Below are positions 23,990-41,425 of a stretch of DNA of 64,000 nucleotides, piece after piece. A model generated the notes under the pieces. It worked only from the letters and a program-made list of their open reading frames with translations. It was not told where the DNA came from and did no database searches. Origin of the DNA: Natranaerobius thermophilus JW/NM-WN-LF (lineage in GTDB: Bacteria > Bacillota > Natranaerobiia > Natranaerobiales > Natranaerobiaceae); contig NC_010718.1 in NCBI RefSeq assembly GCF_000020005.1, positions 1,493,001-1,557,000 of the forward strand, given 5' to 3'. Both the position numbers and the translations under genes were made by a program. Each line of letters starts with the position of its first letter. The first letter of the stretch is position 1.

Positions 23990-26146
23990 ATGCCAACAAC
24001 TGTTTCAGAAGAAATAGCAGGATATCAGCTCACCCTTGAGACAGGGGAATTAGCTAAACAGGCTAATGGTGCTGTTAAAGTTCAGTACGGCAATACAGTA
24101 GTGCTGGTAACTGCTACTGCTTCAAAAGAACCAAAAGATGATTTGAATTTCTTTCCACTAACAGTGGATTACGAAGAAAGACTTTACGCTGTTGGAAAGA
24201 TACCCGGTGGTTTTATTAAACGTGAAGGTAAGCCTACGGAAAAGGCAACTCTAACTGCTAGATTAACTGACCGACCAATTCGTCCATTATTCCCTGATGG
24301 ATTTAGAAATCCTGTTCACATAGTCAGTACAGTCTTGAGTGTAGATCAAAACTGCCCCCCTGAAATTGCCAGCATAATCGGAGCTTCTGCTGCCCTGTCA
24401 ATTTCGGACATTCCCTTTGACGGACCTATAGCATCAGTCAAGGTTGGAAAAGTTAATGATGAAATTGTGGTCACACCAGATGTGGATGAACACGAAGAAA
24501 GTCAACTTGACTTGGTAGTAGCCGGAACTAAGGATGCCATTATGATGGTTGAAGCCGAAGCCAACGAGTTACCCGAAGATGAAATGTTAGAAGCAATTAT
24601 GAAAGCTCATGAAGAAATCAAAAAGATAATTACCATGCAAGAGCAGCTAGTAGAACAAGTTGGCCAGAAAAAGATGGAAGTCGAGCTAGACCTTCCTAGT
24701 GACGAACTTGTTTCCGAAGTAGAAGAACTTGCCCTGGAAGATATTGAGAAAGTTCTACAAATAAAGGATAAACTAGAACGTGAAGATGCTATGGATGAAG
24801 CAAAACAAAAAGTCGTTGATCACTTATTGGAGAAATACAACTCTGAAGAGAATGAAGACGAAGAAGAGGAACTCAAAGAAAAGCATATTAAAAGCGCTTT
24901 TGATTCGATACTGAAACGAGAAATGCGCTCACGTATCATTCATGAAAATTCAAGGCCTGATGGAAGAGGTCAAAAAGAAATTCGACCTGTAACTTGTGAT
25001 GTAGATTTACTACCTAACACTCATGGTTCTGGACTATTTACTAGAGGTCAAACTCAAGTTTTAAATGTGTGTACATTAGGAGCTTTAGGTGATGTACAAA
25101 TACTTGATGGATTGGATATTGAAGAGTCCAAACGTTATATGCATCACTACAACTTCCCACCATATAGTGTAGGAGAAGCTGGCTTTATGAAAGGTCCTGG
25201 AAGACGTGAAATTGGTCATGGTGCCTTAGCAGAACGAGCCTTAAAGCCAATGATACCTACCGAAAAAGACTTCCCTTACACTATAAGATTAGTAAGTGAA
25301 GTTTTGGAATCCAATGGGTCCACCTCCATGGGGAGTGTTTGTGCTAGTTCCTTGTCATTGATGGATGCAGGAGTACCAATAGAAAAAGCTGTTTCAGGGA
25401 TTGCCATGGGATTAATTAAAGAAGGTGACCAGTTGGCAATTCTAAGCGATATTCAGGGGATTGAAGACTTTCTAGGAGATATGGACTTTAAAGTAGCAGG
25501 TACTGAAGATGGAATTACAGCACTCCAAATGGATATCAAGATCTCTGGTACTACAAGAGAGATTTTAAAACAGGCATTGAAACAGGGTAAAGATGGATAT
25601 CTGCACATTTTAAACATAATGAAACAAACAATCAGTGAACCGAGAGAAGAATTATCTCCTCTAGCCCCCAGGGTTATTAAAAAGCAGATTGATCCAGACA
25701 AGATTAGAAATGTCATCGGTCCTGGTGGTAAAATGATCAATAAGATCATTGATGAAACAGGAGTAAAAATCGACATCGAGCCCGATGGATTAATTTACAT
25801 TTCTTCTTCAGATGCAGAACAAGCGGAACAGGCAATTAAAGCAATAGACGAATTAATTAAAGAACCTGAAGTTGGTGAAGTTTATCTCGGAAAAGTAGTT
25901 CGAACTGAAAAGTACGGTGCTTTTGTTGAGATACTACCAGGTAAAGAAGGTTTGGTGCATATTTCCGAGCTTGCTGAAGACAGGGTCGGGAAAACGGAGG
26001 ATGTAGCCAAAGTTGGAGATGAAATTCTGGTTAAAATAATTAACATCGACGAGCGAGGACGTATAAACTTGTCAAGAAAGCAAGCCCTCGGGGAAGAAGA
26101 TGGAAAAACGAATAATGATGATAAAAAATCTACTAAAAAAACATAA
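23990..26146 (+). CDS. pnp: Polyribonucleotide nucleotidyltransferase (PNPase)
   Basis: PNPase degrades RNA 3' to 5' phosphorolytically and can add 3' tails. It has the first RNase PH core (residues about 10-220), a helical linker with an acidic patch ([13 protein letters not shown]), the second, catalytic RNase PH core ([34 protein letters not shown]), a KH domain ([20 protein letters not shown]) and an S1 domain ([18 protein letters not shown]). Length 718. It begins behind GGAGGG, and the stop codon lies inside the following terminator hairpin. Confidence 0.97.
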
Positions 26147-26169
26147 ACCCCACGGGTTTATGTTTTTTA
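26135..26169 (+). terminator. Terminator of pnp
   Basis: AAAAAACATAAACCC pairs with GGGTTTATGTTTTTT around CAC and continues into a T-rich run. The pnp TAA (26144-26146) lies in the left arm. Confidence 0.8.
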
Positions 26170-26298
26170 TTTTGATCTAAAAAGAAAATCATTTTACGAC
26201 ATAAAAATAACTTAAACTCAGAATAGTGATAATAATAATACATATATATAGATTGAGCATGTTTCAAATCTCCTTTTTGAGGAGGTTTTTTACTGTAA

Positions 26299-27312
26299 AT
26301 GTTTAATAAAATTTCTTTTAAAGTTTTAAAAATGAAAAAATTTTTTGTACTTGGTCTAATAGTCCTTATAGTATTACTGGCATTATTAGTAATAGCTTAT
26401 GACGGTATTGATGTCGATTTATCTACAAAAGATGCTCAACGTGTTAACCCAGGAGTGGAGTTTTTAGGAGAAGATTTAAGTGACCTGACAAAGGAAGAGG
26501 TATTTACAATAGTATCTAAATACCAAGAAGATTTGTATCAAGAAGGTGAAGATGCCTACCTGGACCCGGTTACCAAGGGGGTTATCCCTGGATTGCCTGG
26601 AAAAGAACTAGATGTAGAGAATACTGTAGAAAACATTATGCTGGCAGACAGTGAAACAACTGTACCACCTCAATTGAGCACAATTCCTCCAGATAAAACT
26701 ATTCAAGATTATCAAGATGCTCCTATTTATCAGGGAAATCCCAAAAAAGATTATGCTGCTTTTATCTGCAATGTAGCATGGGGAACAGAATATATCGATG
26801 AGCTATTAAACTTATTAGAGGAACATCAAGTCAGGATTTCTTTTTTCTTAGAAGGACGCTGGGCTGCCAATAATCCAGATAAAGTTGAACAAATACATGA
26901 ATACGGGCATGAGATCGGTAATCACGGTTACAGTCATTATATGATGAGTGATTTAAATAGAGATAAGATTAGAGAAGAAATTGAAAAAACTAATCAGGAA
27001 ATTTCTGAAATAACTGGCACAAAAGCTGAACTATTTGGCCCACCTGCAGGTGACTTTGATGAAGATGTTTTACGCGTTGCTAGTAATTTAGATATGTATA
27101 CAATTCTTTGGTCCCTTGATACCATCGATTGGAAAGAACCTGGGGTAGATTATATGACGGATAAAATTTTAAACAATATCCATCCTGGTGCCATTATATT
27201 AATGCACCCAACTGAGGATACCGTTACAGCACTAGATGAAATTCTCACAGGATTGGAATCAAAAGAATATGAGGTGTTACCTGTATCTCAATTGATTAAA
27301 AACTATCAATAA
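26299..27312 (+). CDS. YlxY-type polysaccharide deacetylase-like membrane protein
   Basis: A membrane segment at about residues 13-34 is followed by an extracytoplasmic domain of about 90 residues and a NodB-fold domain (about 150-337). The position after pnp matches ylxY of Bacillus. NodB motif 1, normally TFDDG, reads CNVAWGTEY, so the catalytic Asp pair is missing. GNHGYSH keeps the two metal-binding histidines; FGPPAGDFDE and ILMHPT correspond to later motifs. It may be inactive or use a changed mechanism. Start is uncertain: ATG 26299 lies 13 bases after GGAGG; ATG 26332 has no site. Confidence 0.8.
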   Translation: MFNKISFKVLKMKKFFVLGLIVLIVLLALLVIAYDGIDVDLSTKDAQRVNPGVEFLGEDLSDLTKEEVFTIVSKYQEDLYQEGEDAYLDPVTKGVIPGLPGKELDVENTVENIMLADSETTVPPQLSTIPPDKTIQDYQDAPIYQGNPKKDYAAFICNVAWGTEYIDELLNLLEEHQVRISFFLEGRWAANNPDKVEQIHEYGHEIGNHGYSHYMMSDLNRDKIREEIEKTNQEISEITGTKAELFGPPAGDFDEDVLRVASNLDMYTILWSLDTIDWKEPGVDYMTDKILNNIHPGAIILMHPTEDTVTALDEILTGLESKEYEVLPVSQLIKNYQ

Positions 27313-27339
27313 TTTTGCTTGAAGGTGGCGATATCTGGG

Positions 27340-28230
27340 ATGTCTTTGAAAGGCAAACTAGGGATAATTGGAATATTAGTTTTAATTTTGATTATTATTC
27401 AAGTTCAATTTGATATAGTTGATGATATCAGGCGGTATTTTGTTGGAGTAGAAAAAGATGTATATCTTGAAGAAAAAGATATCGGAAGATGGTATAAACA
27501 TGAAGTTGAAAAATACGTTGAAGAGTTGGCAGAACAAGAATATGAGCCCTACCGAGACGCCTATTTCGATCCGGAAACCGATGAGATAGTTCCAGAAAAA
27601 TTAGGTAAAAAAGTCTTGATAAAGGAAACTGTAGAGAAAGCCATGGAAGCACCTCCCGAGTCTAAAGTAGAAGTTAAGTATTTGCCATTATATCCTTTAA
27701 TAACAAAAGAGTTCTTATCATCTATAGATGAACCCATGGCTAGCTTTGCAACTGGTCTAGGAGGCGGTGGTGGAGAAGGTAGAATTACAAATATAGAGAT
27801 ATCATCCCAAGATGTTAACAATACTTTGCTATTTCCGGGTCAAATTTTTTCTTTTAACAGAGCGACTCTACCGAGAACCTGGGAAAGAGGCTATAGATAT
27901 GCACCAATTTTGGTAAATGATACTGCTATGGGTATAGGTGGGGGAGTTTGTCAGGTATCGAGCACAATTTACAATGTAGCCTTGGAAGCAGATCTAGAAA
28001 TTGTTGAAAGGCATCCTCATGGAAGTCCCGTAGACTACGTACCACCAGGTCGAGATGCTACAGTGGCCGGAGATTATCTAGACTTAAAGTTTAAAAATGA
28101 TACTGAGCATGTCTTGCTTTTAACAGCTCATGTTAGCCAGGGATTGGTAAAAGTTGATTTATACAAATCTCAAGAACCTTTTGCGTTAACTGTAATGAGA
28201 CCTGTCCCCCTTGCTTTTAATAACAATTAA
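27340..28230 (+). CDS. VanW family membrane-anchored protein
   Basis: The N-terminus has one membrane helix (about residues 5-22). Residues about 30-120 resemble the extracytoplasmic region of the preceding protein. The C-terminal VanW domain has PGQIFSFNRATLPRTWERGY, GIGGGVCQVSSTIYNVAL and RHPHGSPVDYVPPGRDA. VanW proteins are common in Clostridia and are presumed to act at the cell wall, but their reaction is unknown. ATG 27340 lies 11 bases after AAGGTGG; the upstream TTG at 27319 is an alternative. Confidence 0.82.
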   Translation: MSLKGKLGIIGILVLILIIIQVQFDIVDDIRRYFVGVEKDVYLEEKDIGRWYKHEVEKYVEELAEQEYEPYRDAYFDPETDEIVPEKLGKKVLIKETVEKAMEAPPESKVEVKYLPLYPLITKEFLSSIDEPMASFATGLGGGGGEGRITNIEISSQDVNNTLLFPGQIFSFNRATLPRTWERGYRYAPILVNDTAMGIGGGVCQVSSTIYNVALEADLEIVERHPHGSPVDYVPPGRDATVAGDYLDLKFKNDTEHVLLLTAHVSQGLVKVDLYKSQEPFALTVMRPVPLAFNNN

Positions 28231-28291
28231 TAATAAAATTACTATATTGGGAACCAATTTAGCCTTAGTTTATAAAGCGAGGGGGATCATA

Positions 28292-29545
28292 ATGTTTGAA
28301 AAACACACTTTACCAAACGGATTAAGAATTGTAGCTGAACCCATGGAAAGTGTCAGATCAGTAACTGTAGGTATTTGGATCAAAAGTGGCAGTAGATTTG
28401 AAAATCTTTCCCAGCAAGGGATTTCTCACTTATTAGAACATATGTTATTCAAAGGTACTGACTCGAGAACCGCTCAAGATATTGCGGAGGAAATTGATAG
28501 TATTGGTGGGCATATAAATGCATTTACTAGTAAAGAGTATACCTGTATTTATATAAAAGTCATTGATAGTCACTTTGAAACTGCTCTTGCCATATTAGCC
28601 GATATGTTTTTTAATTCCAAATTTGACCAAGAAGATTTAGAAAAAGAAAAGCAGGTAATTTTTGAGGAATTAAAAATGTACGAAGATACACCGGATGAAT
28701 ATGTACATGACCTGTTAATCCAATCATGTTATGGAGAACATGAATTAGCTCACAATATTTTGGGTGATAGGGAATCAGTAAGTAATTTGAGTTCTGAAGC
28801 ATTAATTAATCATCATAAAAGATATTTTACCCCAGAAAAAACAGTTATTTCAGTTAGTGGTAATGTTTCTATGGATAATGTAGTCGAAACAGCCACTAAA
28901 TATTTTGGAAGCTTTGTAAATATAAACAATAATGACAATCACCCTCTTCGGGGACCTTCTTATTATACAGATAGCATTGTAAAAGGGAAAGATACAGAAC
29001 AAGTTCATTTTTGTCTAGCTTTTCCCGGTCTCAGTGTAGAAAATTCTCAATTATATCATTTAGGGCTGTTAAATAATATTTTGGGAGGTAGCATGAGTTC
29101 TAAATTTTTTCAAGAAATAAGGGAAAAGCGTGGCTTATGTTATTCAGTGTATTCTTATTACTTAAACTTTACCGACTCTGGGTTATTTGTAATTTATGCC
29201 GGTTTTAGTCAGGACAATTTTAACGAAACCTATGATTTAATATGGAGCATATTAGATGAAATTAAACAAGGATCTATCACCGATGAAGAGCTCAACAGAT
29301 CCAAAGAACAAGTTAAAGGTAATATATTAATGGGCTTAGAAAGTACAAGCAATAGAATGGCTCGATTAGGCCGTGATGAATTATTAAAAGGGGAAATTCT
29401 AACTTATGAGCAGATAATCGAAAAAATTGAAAATATAACAAAGGAAGATTTGTTGAAACTTGCTCAAGATCTATTTCAAAAGAATCAAATGTCTTCAGCA
29501 GTAATTGGGCCCATGAGTGAAGAAGAAGTTCATTCAATTGTATAA
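28292..29545 (+). CDS. M16 family zinc peptidase (MlpA/YmxG-like)
   Basis: This 417-residue protein is a pitrilysin-type (M16B) processing-peptidase-like enzyme. The inverted zinc motif HLLEH is in SQQGISHLLEHMLFKGT and the distal Glu ligand follows in the EKEKQVIFEELKMYEDTPDE region. The second half carries REKRGLCYSVYSY, the R/Y pair typical of M16 C-terminal domains. ATG 28292 follows GAGGGGG; the frame is open upstream to 28211 within the vanW gene, which I discount. The slot between pnp/ylxY and the dpa/dap genes is that of B. subtilis mlpA. Confidence 0.93.
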   Translation: MFEKHTLPNGLRIVAEPMESVRSVTVGIWIKSGSRFENLSQQGISHLLEHMLFKGTDSRTAQDIAEEIDSIGGHINAFTSKEYTCIYIKVIDSHFETALAILADMFFNSKFDQEDLEKEKQVIFEELKMYEDTPDEYVHDLLIQSCYGEHELAHNILGDRESVSNLSSEALINHHKRYFTPEKTVISVSGNVSMDNVVETATKYFGSFVNINNNDNHPLRGPSYYTDSIVKGKDTEQVHFCLAFPGLSVENSQLYHLGLLNNILGGSMSSKFFQEIREKRGLCYSVYSYYLNFTDSGLFVIYAGFSQDNFNETYDLIWSILDEIKQGSITDEELNRSKEQVKGNILMGLESTSNRMARLGRDELLKGEILTYEQIIEKIENITKEDLLKLAQDLFQKNQMSSAVIGPMSEEEVHSIV

Positions 29546-29570: not shown

Positions 29571-29609
29571 AGCAGTCGGTACAAATACCGGCTGCTTTTA
29601 TTATTTTTT
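29571..29609 (+). terminator. Terminator of the M16 peptidase gene
   Basis: AGCAGTCGGTA and TACCGGCTGCT (one G-T pair) around CAAA, then TTTATTATTTTTT. Confidence 0.85.
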
Positions 29610-30361: not shown

Positions 30362-32462
30362 GTTTGCCCGGCATGCCTGCCGCGCCGATGGGTTGAAAGA
30401 AACCCTGTCACCTAACCAGCAGGAAGACAACCATAAGGCAAGGGCGTCACCGGTGACGGTGGAGTCTGAAGGAAGCTGAAGGGGGAATTTGGAACATAGT
30501 GAGAACAAACCGAGGATGGCCTTTTAGGTGGGTAACCTTGCAAATTATGGGAAAGCCCGAAAGCTGGATAACCTAAAAGGTTAGGACGGATGCGTTCAAA
30601 TTCAGGCAAGCAGACTTAACCGGGGAGATACCTGTATTGTCTTGTGACGACAAGTAAAGTTAAGACAAGTGGAAACATGAGTTTTAACTAAAGCAGTGCA
30701 GGAGGCAGATGAACCCGTAGTAGTGAAGAACTTTCGGCCAAAGAAAGCTGGTAACAGTCTGGAGGATAAAACCGAAAGGACACTACACCTGGTTGTAGTG
30801 GTGCATAATGACCGAAAGGGAATTATGTAGTGTGAAGGGGTGAAAGTAGACCAAAGAGTGTAGCAAGAACTCGAGTAGACACTTTAGGTAGGAAGAAAAC
30901 TGAAGCTGAAATGCTAAAGGGAACGGAAAGTCAGGTGGTGACGAGCTTACTTGCTTTACCGTCCGCCTAGTGGAAGTAGAGCGTACCCTGATAGGTAAGA
31001 TTGCCAAAGAGCTAGAGACACCGTTAAGCACGTTCAAAGAAACCACAACTAAAAGTGTAGAAAGAGGGAAGGCACACAGCGAAAGAAGGTGCAATTGATG
31101 AAGAAATGGTACAGTTTAATAGACAAGATTTATTCCAAAAAGAATCTAGAAGACGCCTACCGCAGGGTCAGAGCTAACAAAGGTAAACCCGGCATAGACC
31201 AGGTAACCGTGGAGGCTTATGGCTCCAACCTAGAAGAAAATCTGGAAACCCTTCATCATGACCTTAAAATTGGCGCATACAAACCACAACCTGTGAGGCG
31301 AGTTAAGATACCCAAACCAGATGGAAGTACTCGCCCATTAGGGATTCCAACCGTAAAAGACAGGGTAGTCCAACAAGCAACGTTAAATATACTTCAACCG
31401 ATTTTTGATCCAGACTTCCACCCGTCAAGCTACGGATACAGGCCTAATCGCTCATGTCACAAAGCAATAGCTAAATCAGAACAGTTCATTAATAAATACA
31501 ATCTAAGACATGTAGTAGATATGGACCTATCTAAATGCTTTGATAAATTAAACCATGAGTTGATTATCGAAGAAGTAGCCAAGAAAGTTAGTGATGGAAG
31601 TGTTCTCAAATTAATAAAGAAATTTTTGAAGTCCGGAGTAATGGAAGATGGAGCCATAGAAGACACAGAAATAGGGAGCCCTCAAGGTGGAGTGATTTCA
31701 CCACTACTAACCAACATTTACCTAGACAGATTTGATAAAGAAATGAAGAGTCGCAATATCCGAATAGTAAGATATGCCGATGATATTTTAATATTCGCCT
31801 ACACACCAAGACAAGCGAAAAGATATAAAGATATAGCTACTGAAATATTAGAAGACGAATTAAAACTAACAGTTAATAAAGAGAAAACTCACATAACAAA
31901 TGACCGCAAAGGTGTTCCCTACCTAGGAGTTATCATAAGGAGTCAAAACATATCCATCCAGCCTGAAAAGATACAGAAATTCAAAGAAAAAGTCAGAACT
32001 CTTACACCAAGAAATCATGGTAGAAATCTATCCGAAATCATAAAAGAGCTAAATCCAGTATTAAGAGGATGGGCAAATTACTTCCGAATAGCCAATTGTA
32101 AGAAACAATTTGAGAACTTAATGAAATGGATTAGAAGAAGACTTAGGATGAAGAAAATGCGAGAATGGAAAAGTTGGAAACAACTACACAAAACTCTTCG
32201 CAGAAAAGGCTACAAAGGGGAATTTGAGAAAATCTCCATGAATAAATGGAGAAACTCATCAAGTCCTCTCATAAGTTTAGCACTACCCAATAAGTGGTTT
32301 GACGAGATAGGTCTAATTAATATTAGTACCTATCAAGTTGGTATTTTGCATCACTTTAGAAAGTGATCGAGGTCTACTAGGAGCCGTGTACGTGGCCCGT
32401 AAGCACGGTTCTGTGAGAGGAACGAAGCCACAGCTAATTACTGTGGCTTCTACCTACTCGAT
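30359..32462 (+). mobile_element. Group II intron (class C type), copy 1
   Basis: This 2104-bp block recurs at 39322-41425 with constant offset 8963 and, wherever I compared, no difference. About 740 bases of structured RNA precede the reverse transcriptase gene. Near the 3' end is a domain V: GAGCCGTGT (from 32381), a small upper stem ACG/CGT, bulge AA, then GCACGGTTC. A domain VI hairpin GAAGCCACAG/CTGTGGCTTC follows. It lacks an endonuclease and sits right after a terminator, both features of group IIC introns. Exact ends are uncertain by about 10 bases because bases shared with the target blur them. Confidence 0.9.
31098..32366 (+). CDS. ltrA: Group II intron reverse transcriptase/maturase, copy 1
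   Basis: The 422-residue protein has reverse transcriptase motifs in order: YGYRPNRSCHKAI, VDMDLSKCFDKLNHE, GSPQGGVISPLLTNIYLDRF, the catalytic RYADDILIF, and PYLGV. A maturase (domain X) region follows with LNPVLRGWANYFRIANCKKQ. The chain ends with no HNH endonuclease, as in class C intron proteins. ATG 31098 is six bases after AAGGTG; GTG 31089 lies within that site. It binds and helps splice its own intron RNA and primes insertion at new sites. Confidence 0.95.
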   Translation: MKKWYSLIDKIYSKKNLEDAYRRVRANKGKPGIDQVTVEAYGSNLEENLETLHHDLKIGAYKPQPVRRVKIPKPDGSTRPLGIPTVKDRVVQQATLNILQPIFDPDFHPSSYGYRPNRSCHKAIAKSEQFINKYNLRHVVDMDLSKCFDKLNHELIIEEVAKKVSDGSVLKLIKKFLKSGVMEDGAIEDTEIGSPQGGVISPLLTNIYLDRFDKEMKSRNIRIVRYADDILIFAYTPRQAKRYKDIATEILEDELKLTVNKEKTHITNDRKGVPYLGVIIRSQNISIQPEKIQKFKEKVRTLTPRNHGRNLSEIIKELNPVLRGWANYFRIANCKKQFENLMKWIRRRLRMKKMREWKSWKQLHKTLRRKGYKGEFEKISMNKWRNSSSPLISLALPNKWFDEIGLINISTYQVGILHHFRK

Positions 32463-32545: not shown

Positions 32546-33424
32546 ATGCATAGCATGGAAACGTCTAGGGTAGCTGTTATGGGCGGAGATGAGCGAGATA
32601 TTTACTTAATAAATTATCTACAAGCACAAGGTTTTGAGGTATATGCTATTGGATTTGACCGGATTGGCTATCAAATTGATGGTAAGCTATTATACTCCTT
32701 AGATACCGAAGATATTGATTTTAAAGCAATTATCTTACCTGTAGTTGGTTTAAATGACAATGGAGACATCCCTGCTTCATATACTACTAGAAAACTGAAC
32801 TTCTACCAAGAAACTGAATCTATTTATCCCCTGCCTTTGGTGCTAACGGGAAAAAGCAATTCTGAGTTAGATGATTACATTAAAAATAAGGATGGTAAGC
32901 TCATTGAAACAATCGATTTAGATGAAATTGCTATTTACAATTCTGTCCCTACGGCAGAGGGTGCGGTGTTAAGAGCCATTGAACTCTCAAAAGTTACCAT
33001 CCACGGAAGTAAAAGCTTGGTACTAGGACTTGGAAGATGTGGTATTAGCCTAGCAAGACTACTGATTAATATGGGTTCTGAGGTAACTGTGGCCGCGCGA
33101 AGAACAGCTCATTTAGCCAGGGCGGAGGAAATGACAGCTAAAGTTGGCCACATTAATAATTTACAAGACTATATATCTGAATTTCAAATAATTTTCAATA
33201 CTATTCCCGACCAAATTTTAACTAAAGAGATAATTGAACAGATCAACAATGAAGCAGTTGTGGTGGATATTGCTTCTGGCCAGGGAGGCACAGATTTTGA
33301 TGCCTGTCGTAAACATAATATAAAAGCAATTTTAGCACCGGGCCTCCCGGGTAAAATCGCCCCTAAAACAGCGGGAGAAATTTTAGGAAAAGTGTATACT
33401 CGTTTAATAACACCTTATTTGTGA
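32546..33424 (+). CDS. dpaA: Dipicolinate synthase subunit A
   Basis: DpaA (SpoVFA), with DpaB, converts a lysine-pathway intermediate to dipicolinic acid in the mother cell during sporulation. The 292-residue protein has an N-terminal Rossmann-like half (VAVMGGDERDIYLINYL) and a second NAD-type fold (VLGLGRCGISLARLLINMGS). It begins at ATG 32546 behind AGGGGG, about 80 bases after the end of intron 1. dpaB follows after 12 bases. Presence of dpaAB indicates an endospore former. Confidence 0.95.
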   Translation: MHSMETSRVAVMGGDERDIYLINYLQAQGFEVYAIGFDRIGYQIDGKLLYSLDTEDIDFKAIILPVVGLNDNGDIPASYTTRKLNFYQETESIYPLPLVLTGKSNSELDDYIKNKDGKLIETIDLDEIAIYNSVPTAEGAVLRAIELSKVTIHGSKSLVLGLGRCGISLARLLINMGSEVTVAARRTAHLARAEEMTAKVGHINNLQDYISEFQIIFNTIPDQILTKEIIEQINNEAVVVDIASGQGGTDFDACRKHNIKAILAPGLPGKIAPKTAGEILGKVYTRLITPYL

Positions 33425-33436
33425 GGGGGTGATTAA

Positions 33437-34027
33437 ATGAATTTAACTGGACTCAAAGTGGGGTTTGCTGTCACCAGTTCCCATTGCACTTTTGATGAAG
33501 CTTTTAAAGAAATTGAAAATATTGTTGAGGCGGGAGCAGAAGTTTATCCAATAATTACACCTGGAGTAGACAATATGAACACTAGATTCGGTGAAGCTAT
33601 AGAGTGGAAACAAAAGCTTGTTCAGATTACTGGCAAAAAACTAATTAATAGTATTGTTTCGGCAGAGCCTATTGGACCTCAGAGCTTTGTGGATATAATT
33701 GTTATAGCACCTTGTACTGGTAATACAATAGCCAAACTAGCAAATGGGATTACAGATACAGCAGTGACCATGGCAGCCAAAGCACAATTGAGAAATCAAA
33801 AGCCTGTTGTAATCGGTGTTTCTACAAATGATGCTTTAGGCTTAAATGCTAGAAATCTAGGAGTGCTGTTAAATGCAAAACATGTTTATTTTGTTCCCTT
33901 TTTCCAAGATGTTCCTTCAAAAAAGCCGAATTCTGTGATCAGTAAAATGGACTTAATTATCCCGACAATACAACATGCATTAGAAGGTGAACAATTGCAA
34001 CCCTTGTTATTGGCAGGAGAGGAGTAA
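33437..34027 (+). CDS. dpaB: Dipicolinate synthase subunit B
   Basis: DpaB (SpoVFB) is a flavoprotein of the HFCD fold. The 196-residue chain shows VGFAVTSSHCTFDEAFKEI, the IVIAPCTGNTIAKLANGITD flavin-binding segment and VIGVSTNDALGLNARNLGVL. It starts behind GAGGGGGTGA and is five bases from dapG, so it belongs to the same operon. Confidence 0.95.
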   Translation: MNLTGLKVGFAVTSSHCTFDEAFKEIENIVEAGAEVYPIITPGVDNMNTRFGEAIEWKQKLVQITGKKLINSIVSAEPIGPQSFVDIIVIAPCTGNTIAKLANGITDTAVTMAAKAQLRNQKPVVIGVSTNDALGLNARNLGVLLNAKHVYFVPFFQDVPSKKPNSVISKMDLIIPTIQHALEGEQLQPLLLAGEE

Positions 34028-39324: not shown

Positions 39325-41425
39325 GTTTGCCCGGCATGCCTGCCGCGCCGATGGGTTGAAAGAAACCCTGTCACCTAACCAGCAGGAAGACAACCATAAG
39401 GCAAGGGCGTCACCGGTGACGGTGGAGTCTGAAGGAAGCTGAAGGGGGAATTTGGAACATAGTGAGAACAAACCGAGGATGGCCTTTTAGGTGGGTAACC
39501 TTGCAAATTATGGGAAAGCCCGAAAGCTGGATAACCTAAAAGGTTAGGACGGATGCGTTCAAATTCAGGCAAGCAGACTTAACCGGGGAGATACCTGTAT
39601 TGTCTTGTGACGACAAGTAAAGTTAAGACAAGTGGAAACATGAGTTTTAACTAAAGCAGTGCAGGAGGCAGATGAACCCGTAGTAGTGAAGAACTTTCGG
39701 CCAAAGAAAGCTGGTAACAGTCTGGAGGATAAAACCGAAAGGACACTACACCTGGTTGTAGTGGTGCATAATGACCGAAAGGGAATTATGTAGTGTGAAG
39801 GGGTGAAAGTAGACCAAAGAGTGTAGCAAGAACTCGAGTAGACACTTTAGGTAGGAAGAAAACTGAAGCTGAAATGCTAAAGGGAACGGAAAGTCAGGTG
39901 GTGACGAGCTTACTTGCTTTACCGTCCGCCTAGTGGAAGTAGAGCGTACCCTGATAGGTAAGATTGCCAAAGAGCTAGAGACACCGTTAAGCACGTTCAA
40001 AGAAACCACAACTAAAAGTGTAGAAAGAGGGAAGGCACACAGCGAAAGAAGGTGCAATTGATGAAGAAATGGTACAGTTTAATAGACAAGATTTATTCCA
40101 AAAAGAATCTAGAAGACGCCTACCGCAGGGTCAGAGCTAACAAAGGTAAACCCGGCATAGACCAGGTAACCGTGGAGGCTTATGGCTCCAACCTAGAAGA
40201 AAATCTGGAAACCCTTCATCATGACCTTAAAATTGGCGCATACAAACCACAACCTGTGAGGCGAGTTAAGATACCCAAACCAGATGGAAGTACTCGCCCA
40301 TTAGGGATTCCAACCGTAAAAGACAGGGTAGTCCAACAAGCAACGTTAAATATACTTCAACCGATTTTTGATCCAGACTTCCACCCGTCAAGCTACGGAT
40401 ACAGGCCTAATCGCTCATGTCACAAAGCAATAGCTAAATCAGAACAGTTCATTAATAAATACAATCTAAGACATGTAGTAGATATGGACCTATCTAAATG
40501 CTTTGATAAATTAAACCATGAGTTGATTATCGAAGAAGTAGCCAAGAAAGTTAGTGATGGAAGTGTTCTCAAATTAATAAAGAAATTTTTGAAGTCCGGA
40601 GTAATGGAAGATGGAGCCATAGAAGACACAGAAATAGGGAGCCCTCAAGGTGGAGTGATTTCACCACTACTAACCAACATTTACCTAGACAGATTTGATA
40701 AAGAAATGAAGAGTCGCAATATCCGAATAGTAAGATATGCCGATGATATTTTAATATTCGCCTACACACCAAGACAAGCGAAAAGATATAAAGATATAGC
40801 TACTGAAATATTAGAAGACGAATTAAAACTAACAGTTAATAAAGAGAAAACTCACATAACAAATGACCGCAAAGGTGTTCCCTACCTAGGAGTTATCATA
40901 AGGAGTCAAAACATATCCATCCAGCCTGAAAAGATACAGAAATTCAAAGAAAAAGTCAGAACTCTTACACCAAGAAATCATGGTAGAAATCTATCCGAAA
41001 TCATAAAAGAGCTAAATCCAGTATTAAGAGGATGGGCAAATTACTTCCGAATAGCCAATTGTAAGAAACAATTTGAGAACTTAATGAAATGGATTAGAAG
41101 AAGACTTAGGATGAAGAAAATGCGAGAATGGAAAAGTTGGAAACAACTACACAAAACTCTTCGCAGAAAAGGCTACAAAGGGGAATTTGAGAAAATCTCC
41201 ATGAATAAATGGAGAAACTCATCAAGTCCTCTCATAAGTTTAGCACTACCCAATAAGTGGTTTGACGAGATAGGTCTAATTAATATTAGTACCTATCAAG
41301 TTGGTATTTTGCATCACTTTAGAAAGTGATCGAGGTCTACTAGGAGCCGTGTACGTGGCCCGTAAGCACGGTTCTGTGAGAGGAACGAAGCCACAGCTAA
41401 TTACTGTGGCTTCTACCTACTCGAT
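39322..41425 (+). mobile_element. Group II intron (class C type), copy 2
   Basis: This is the same 2104-bp block as copy 1, in the same orientation, starting at the same offset and ending with the same domain V and VI. The junction bases differ from copy 1 (T before the shared start, A after the shared end), so the two are separate insertions after different terminators. The near-perfect identity over the whole length implies recent retrotransposition or gene conversion. Confidence 0.9.
40061..41329 (+). CDS. ltrA: Group II intron reverse transcriptase/maturase, copy 2
   Basis: The product is identical in all 422 residues to the copy at 31098, including the YADD active site and domain X, so both are likely to be functional. 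The start is ATG 40061, on the same argument as copy 1. Confidence 0.95.
   Translation: MKKWYSLIDKIYSKKNLEDAYRRVRANKGKPGIDQVTVEAYGSNLEENLETLHHDLKIGAYKPQPVRRVKIPKPDGSTRPLGIPTVKDRVVQQATLNILQPIFDPDFHPSSYGYRPNRSCHKAIAKSEQFINKYNLRHVVDMDLSKCFDKLNHELIIEEVAKKVSDGSVLKLIKKFLKSGVMEDGAIEDTEIGSPQGGVISPLLTNIYLDRFDKEMKSRNIRIVRYADDILIFAYTPRQAKRYKDIATEILEDELKLTVNKEKTHITNDRKGVPYLGVIIRSQNISIQPEKIQKFKEKVRTLTPRNHGRNLSEIIKELNPVLRGWANYFRIANCKKQFENLMKWIRRRLRMKKMREWKSWKQLHKTLRRKGYKGEFEKISMNKWRNSSSPLISLALPNKWFDEIGLINISTYQVGILHHFRK

Follow-up and report, generated by a model that had tools for sequence, protein, structure and literature searches.

Two adjacent genes of Natranaerobius thermophilus JW/NM-WN-LF raise the question of why a YlxY-type protein and a short VanW-type protein appear to carry the same module between their membrane helix and their C-terminal domain. 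The genes lie in the window analyzed here, a 64-kb stretch of contig NC_010718.1 (positions 1,493,001–1,557,000, forward strand), in which all coordinates below are counted from its first letter. A sequence-only reading had proposed that the neighbors share an N-terminal external domain, recognizable by a series of motifs, which was duplicated and joined to two different enzyme modules, and it had named profile-profile alignment, structure prediction, and a search in other envelope proteins as checks. The locus contains the following features.

23990..26146, + strand: pnp (polynucleotide phosphorylase), upstream; name recognized from sequence
26136..26168, + strand: terminator-like hairpin after pnp
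26299..27312, + strand: ylxY/swsB-type gene, 337 aa, with membrane helix, PG_binding_4-like (PG4-like) module, and NodB-fold domain; best NCBIfam model TIGR02873
26320..26400, + strand: predicted membrane helix of the YlxY-type protein, residues 8–34 (structure model)
26434..26718, + strand: shared N-terminal module, YlxY copy, residues 46–140 (profile comparisons)
26746..27300, + strand: NodB (CE4-fold) domain, about residues 150–334 (alignments, structural match, and comparison with SwsB in the available text of PMC12444981)
26770–26772, + strand: N158 of the YlxY-type protein, at the place of the catalytic base
27205–27207, + strand: H303 of the YlxY-type protein, the kept general-acid His
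27319..28230, + strand: short vanW-type gene, 303 aa as listed from TTG
27436..27717, + strand: shared N-terminal module, VanW copy, residues 40–133 (profile comparisons)
27781..28164, + strand: VanW domain, residues 155–282 (PF04294, 156.5 bits)
27949–27951 and 28018–28020, + strand: Cys211 and His234 of the VanW-type protein
28211..29545, + strand: M16-type peptidase gene (mlpA position), downstream
29571–29596: terminator-like hairpin after the M16 gene
32546..34027, + strand: dpaA and dpaB, the spore genes for dipicolinate synthase, also in this neighborhood

By the listed starts, ylxY and vanW are separated by 6 nt on the same strand, and an ATG at 27343 (M9) is a likelier start for vanW than the listed TTG. 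One predicted membrane helix opens each of the two proteins in the structure models. A hairpin similar to that after pnp is legible upstream of ylxY in the genomes G001 and G002. Several other features of the region were observed. Downstream of the listed TTG of vanW, a GGTGG sequence follows (27319–27345). A second terminator-like hairpin (26266–26288) stops shortly before ylxY; the 3' arm of this hairpin contains GAGGAGG, which resembles the ribosome-binding site. G001 has a different hairpin at a similar place. A group II intron reverse transcriptase/maturase (31089–32366, 434 bits) sits between the M16 gene and dpaA, and the ORF at 40052–41329, which has the same length of 425 aa and the same start codon, may be a second copy.

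Orthologs drawn from 119 related genomes comprised 20 YlxY rows that include the N-terminal region and 15 rows of short VanW, from which N-domain profiles were built without the membrane helix. The two profiles align by hhalign over about 93 columns without a gap, with a probability of 99.9 and a score of 161.6 (162.8 for the same pair in the tool's own alignments), whereas none of 100 column-permuted controls exceeded 20.8. The profile of the 20 YlxY N-domains finds all 15 short VanW proteins at 57–80 bits (best of 900 shuffles, 11.1), and the profile of the 15 VanW N-domains finds all 20 YlxY proteins at 32–94 bits (best of 1200 shuffles, 7.3). Searches of the whole genome with the profile of one family recover the gene of the other, VanW with the YlxY-only profile (E 2.3e-23) and YlxY with the VanW-only profile (E 6.7e-16); nothing else comes near in these searches, the next matches being a long VanW (0.03) and a 298-aa frame (0.4). 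The first YlxY and VanW module sequences are 29% identical, and the nearly invariant residues of the YlxY module are V8, G56, T64, A71, and P86. In the register derived from sequence, the predicted secondary structures coincide at 82 of 89 positions, versus 62 or fewer in other registers and 44 and 49 at best elsewhere in the other protein. The YlxY structure model is confident, with a mean pLDDT of 93.1; the VanW model, built from 7 sequences, is moderate, with a mean pLDDT of 76.2, and its lack of a fold match among PDB chains at E ≤ 0.001 is uninformative about the fold.

Judged by these profiles, the segments of YlxY and VanW between the membrane helix and the C-terminal domain are homologous, and the proposed shared external domain is thus borne out by both the profile controls and the secondary-structure register. 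Most of the motifs that had been pointed out occur in the stated order (EDAYLDP/RDAYFDP, VIP/IVP, and ENTVEN/KETVEK), but of the supposed LxGK only GK is common, the rest being different (LPGK versus KLGK). The similarity is also wider than the motif region, as it starts about 40 residues before DAY. Beyond this locus, the VanW-only profile finds the module at E ≤ 0.01 in 76 of the 80 named YlxY loci, the loci without a match being L095, L107, L115, and L133. The C-terminal modules are unrelated, and the YlxY one is no ordinary second enzyme: it carries Asn for the catalytic Asp.

The module resembles PG_binding_4 (PF12229), which by its own name is a "putative" peptidoglycan-binding domain. 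PF12229 scores 14.3 and 18.2 bits on the whole window proteins, both under the cut-off of 22.1, and the matches cover only the second half of the model (positions 54–107 and 54–111 of 117). At E ≤ 1, it matches 17 of the 20 YlxY and 13 of the 15 short VanW N-domain segments; in whole-genome searches, several YlxY genes exceed the cut-off (among them G002, 32.3 bits; G094, 28.5; G026, 27.7; G056, 27.6; G064, 25.0), as does the G002 VanW (31.3 bits). Pfam nevertheless misses the module in most YlxY proteins: at E ≤ 0.1, the model is found in 17 of 46 YlxY rows, and two Bacillus-type YlxY proteins scanned singly gave no PF12229 match at E ≤ 1. Long VanW proteins contain two repeats related to the module, to which hhalign aligns YlxY with scores of 70.7–71.7 and short VanW with 68.5–80.9 (probabilities 97.9–98.6). 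The long-VanW repeats are thus more distant (68.5–80.9) from the YlxY and short-VanW modules than these two are from one another (162.8). The module is a short, divergent relative of PF12229 and is called PG_binding_4-like here rather than a PF12229 member. PG_binding_4 is already known in YkuD L,D-transpeptidases, and its presence on VanW L,D-transpeptidases is described in the available text of PMC12729407. Two other proteins with this domain were observed: a long VanW with PG_binding_4 over the cut-off (L001, G000:C2:1563079–1566402, 552 aa frame) lies in the same genome as the pair, about 43 kb downstream, and the product of L153:1240–2487 combines PG_binding_4 (82 bits) with a G5 domain and has no VanW domain.

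The C-terminal domain of the YlxY-type protein matches Polysacc_deac_1 (99.5 bits), and its best NCBIfam model is TIGR02873 (spore_ylxY), at 258.9 bits and under the cut-off of 391.5. NodB trees place the window protein together with Bacillus YlxY and separate from PdaB, in clades of 32 rows (98/97) and 41 rows (99/95). The catalytic-base position is N in 44 of 44 YlxY-type rows and D in 8 of 8 PdaB-type rows, and N158 and H303 are invariant in 46 rows. The gene keeps the place pnp–ylxY–M16, with vanW inserted. Structurally, the best match of the YlxY model is BA3943 (PDB 7bkf, 6hpa, and 6hm9; Z 35.1–36.9, rmsd 2.8–2.9, 34–35% identity), whose entries were titled CE4 family pseudoenzyme by the depositors. 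BA3943 of B. anthracis has reportedly been published with Asn in place of the catalytic Asp. Its residues 2–74 match the YlxY N-domain profile at E 1e-8 and the VanW N-domain profile at 0.007. Among the VIA-align rows for the YlxY model, it is almost exclusively those of BA3943 that cover the module, and the E. faecium L,D-transpeptidase is absent among the matches listed.

We take P50850 to be YlxY, and hence SwsB to be YlxY. P50850 is the UniProt entry of SwsB in PMC12444981, and PMC9332280, which in its available text cites CwlJ-related work for YlxY, also underlies this equation. SwsB of Bacillus subtilis converts muramic acid to muramic-delta-lactam without deacetylation; compared to PdaA, it has Asn at the catalytic position and has lost the Thr two residues before and the motif 3 Arg, while its His is needed (PMC12444981). 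The same signature (N158, I156, G247, and H303) was read by eye on alignments in the window protein. SwsB without its N-terminal domain still cyclizes, only more weakly (PMC12444981), so the module is not essential in vitro. The YlxY-type protein is, by analogy, probably a muramic-delta-lactam cyclase. The reading of the pair as two active enzymes, a deacetylase and a transpeptidase, was dropped, as Asn replaces the catalytic Asp like in SwsB and BA3943. As a separate observation, a third NodB-type gene precedes the ylxY–vanW pair in several lineages (L176, L179, and L185), with Glu for the catalytic Asp (TFEALWG, TFETVWG, and TFEVTWG), which is another altered active site.

In the VanW-type protein, the VanW domain PF04294 is clearly recognized (156.5 bits, cut-off 27), and C211 and H234, the Cys and His of L,D-transpeptidases, are invariant in 7 of 7 sequences. 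A role in glycopeptide resistance was dropped; the corresponding model, NF033128, scores 69.2 bits under a cut-off of 365. In the available text of PMC12729407, C. difficile VanW proteins that carry PG4 domains act as L,D-transpeptidases, and some VanW proteins are inactive as such. The C. difficile cortex has only 3-3 cross-links, for which three YkuD enzymes are dispensable (PMC11986978), and VanW enzymes are therefore suspected of making them. By analogy, the short VanW probably makes 3-3 (L,D) cross-links.

The two genes recur together. Among the named loci, which are mostly from Bacilli, ylxY lies in the order pnp–ylxY–M16 peptidase with both neighbors in 71 of 80 and has vanW beside it in 6 of 80; the order pnp–ylxY–vanW–M16 is found in the window, G001, and G002 (3/3). 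Short VanW proteins with the module, defined by an ORF of ≤ 355 aa and a match start at ≤ 48 (G356, whose match starts at residue 64, was left out), were sought in 398 Bacillota genomes, and the matches listed, which reach to about E 2e-36, include at least 51 genes in at least 48 genomes. Among these matches, 37 of the 51 genes have a YlxY-type gene within 500 nt on the same strand; they come from 37 of the 48 genomes and from 14 of the 18 families, with vanW after the YlxY-type gene in 21 pairs and before it in 16; the other 14 genes lack such a neighbor and 11 of the 48 genomes lack the pair. Where read, the partner YlxY-type genes have motif 1 with Asn. In seven families (f16, f39, f40, f69, f83, f92, and f134), a YlxY-type partner without the module stands beside a module-bearing vanW, and Bacilli have YlxY with the module and no linked vanW.

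All 48 short-vanW genomes among the matches listed contain spoIVA, compared to 336 of all 398 genomes (Fisher p 1.7e-4, with kinship ignored); the first 119 relatives gave a weak contrast (15/15 versus 103/119), and the 398-genome set was used instead. Long VanW genes also occur in genomes without spoIVA (e.g., G027, G030, G071, G074, and G077). A scan upstream of ylxY with what we take to be the sigma-E promoter consensus, scored against mononucleotide shuffles, found 27% of shuffles as good for the window, 4% for G001, and 8% for G002. This lends a sigma-E promoter no support and, as 15 Bacillus-type loci meant as positive controls failed too (20–100% of shuffles as good), the scan itself is weak. 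In the available text, ylxY is not induced in C. perfringens sporulation (PMC9332280), and a paper on B. anthracis sporulation genes makes no mention of ylxY (PMC12700454). The recurrence of swsB–vanW pairs across spore formers suggests that the two proteins probably work jointly on the spore wall.

The history of the module was read from a tree of 99 copies (40 long-VanW, 38 YlxY, and 21 short-VanW), from which the wrongly cut row L145_R2 had been dropped. A single branch (99/91) separates all 40 long-VanW copies from those of YlxY and short VanW. The closest companions of the window VanW copy are VanW copies from its own order, followed by a set of 12 VanW and 4 YlxY rows (95/91), and the window YlxY copy groups with 22 YlxY rows (99/87), or with 35–40 YlxY copies across the two trees. 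According to these topologies, the separation of the YlxY and VanW copies is older than the sampled Bacillota families.

Some YlxY-type proteins (L015, L031, L017, L024, L025, and L028) bear a VanW-type module, and their NodB domains lie outside the classical YlxY clade, near module-less YlxY-type genes that adjoin vanW. A SwsB-type domain of the module-less kind is fused to a VanW-type module in G026, G106, G102, G041, G082, the f56 group, and G170. The presence of a VanW-type module on YlxY-type proteins looks like an exchange between neighboring genes, as if vanW had passed its module to the gene beside it. In the N-domain test, a single clade of all YlxY gave a p-AU of 0.21 with 38 YlxY rows and 0.167 with 51 rows; in the NodB test, a single clade of all module-bearing YlxY gave 0.038 with 52 rows and 0.217 with 29 rows added. 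The "hop" group in the module-exchange test was named after the first tree had been seen. The topologies favor repeated exchange of the module between genes, but the one-clade tests do not establish it; as p is 0.17–0.22 in three of the four tests and 0.038 in one, loss of the module in short YlxY genes is possible.

The reading that we prefer, with a probability of roughly 0.55, is that these are two single-pass, membrane-anchored spore-cortex proteins in which a shared, single-copy PG_binding_4-like pedestal of about 93 residues holds both catalytic modules at the same glycan strands. Encoded by ylxY and vanW as one operon, both proteins would be anchored in the membrane facing the spore cortex, and the module between membrane and catalytic domain would bring each enzyme to the glycan strand. 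There, the SwsB/YlxY-type protein would close lactam rings where stem peptides have been removed, and the short VanW would join the remaining stems by 3-3 bonds. The module homology, its relation to PF12229, the Asn signature, the kept Cys and His, and the gene linkage are shown here, whereas we infer that the proteins have these activities, act at the cortex, are transcribed together, and bind peptidoglycan. Several observations count against this reading: the unsupportive promoter scan, the missing induction of ylxY in C. perfringens sporulation (PMC9332280), the cyclization in vitro by SwsB without its N-terminal domain (PMC12444981), the scores of the window proteins under the PF12229 and TIGR02873 cut-offs, and the 11 of 48 genomes, among the matches listed, in which the short vanW has no such neighbor. 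A broader reading, which we hold only tentatively, is that the short VanW founds a spore-specific class of L,D-transpeptidases that works with SwsB on the cortex, with the module repeatedly exchanged between genes.

The module could instead be a passive, rigid spacer that lacks affinity for peptidoglycan and has been retained because the two proteins need to reach the wall at equal height. This alternative is possible, if unlikely: in the models the module directly follows the membrane helix in both proteins, its YlxY form has few invariant residues, the SwsB cyclase is merely weakened by removal of the N-terminal domain (PMC12444981), and its counterpart in E. faecium Ldtfm is described as a predicted pedestal (PMC12729407). 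However, the cross-family similarity (29% identity, profile score 162.8) is above what a spacer would need. Less probable still is a protein–protein interface, by which YlxY and VanW would pair with each other or would each bind a third protein of sporulation. Such an interface agrees with the adjacency of ylxY-type and vanW genes in 14 families among the matches listed and with YlxY and VanW modules that are closer to each other (162.8) than the VanW module is to the long-VanW PG4 repeats (80.9), but it sits poorly with the seven families in which the partner beside vanW lacks the module and with the Bacilli, where YlxY has the module without a linked vanW.

A recent local duplication, in which the module was copied from one gene of the pair to the other in this lineage, is very improbable. 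Adjacency of the genes and the visible likeness of their motifs would speak for it, but two trees group each window copy with its own gene family, VanW with VanW and YlxY with YlxY; it was dropped, and of the "duplicated" domain in the sequence-only reading the homologous copies are retained without a recent duplication. Convergent or chance motifs without a common origin can be considered refuted with near certainty: the single-sequence Pfam matches under the cut-off would allow them, and all profile controls together with the matching secondary-structure register contradict them.

With this homology, the N-terminal domain of SwsB, described only as an extra domain in the available text of a 2025 paper (PMC12444981), gains an identity as PG_binding_4-like. 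A literature search that covered few subscription papers returned no report of the YlxY/SwsB N-terminal domain as PG4-like and none of a swsB–vanW gene pair. The gene linkage ties muramic-delta-lactam synthesis to a candidate cortex L,D-transpeptidase. The makers of the C. difficile cortex 3-3 cross-links are given as open in the available text of PMC11986978, and for such cross-linking in other spore formers the short VanW offers a specific candidate. One membrane-proximal module is common to unrelated wall enzymes, namely the VanW and NodB-fold proteins found here and the YkuD enzymes of the literature. The swsB–vanW pair recurs across spore formers, and the module is general in YlxY.

Compared to known systems, both window modules align to the PG_binding_4 model, and a long VanW of the same genome exceeds its cut-off, but the window modules themselves stay under it, match only its second half, and fall on a separate side of the tree from long VanW. 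With the VanW of van operons (NF033128), the window protein shares the VanW domain; it differs in a score under the cut-off and in its extra N-terminal module. LdtCd4 and LdtCd5 of Clostridioides difficile are similar, by their description in PMC12729407, in having a membrane helix, PG4, and a VanW domain with Cys and His, whereas the window VanW is short, has one copy of a YlxY-like module, and is linked to a swsB-type gene. BA3943 is the best structural match of the YlxY-type protein and is matched by the module profiles at its residues 2–74, although its solved chains begin within the module. SwsB shares with the window protein the membrane helix, the extra N-terminal domain, the N158/I156/G247/H303 pattern, and the place after pnp; the window protein differs in scoring under the TIGR02873 cut-off and in having vanW between ylxY and the M16 gene.
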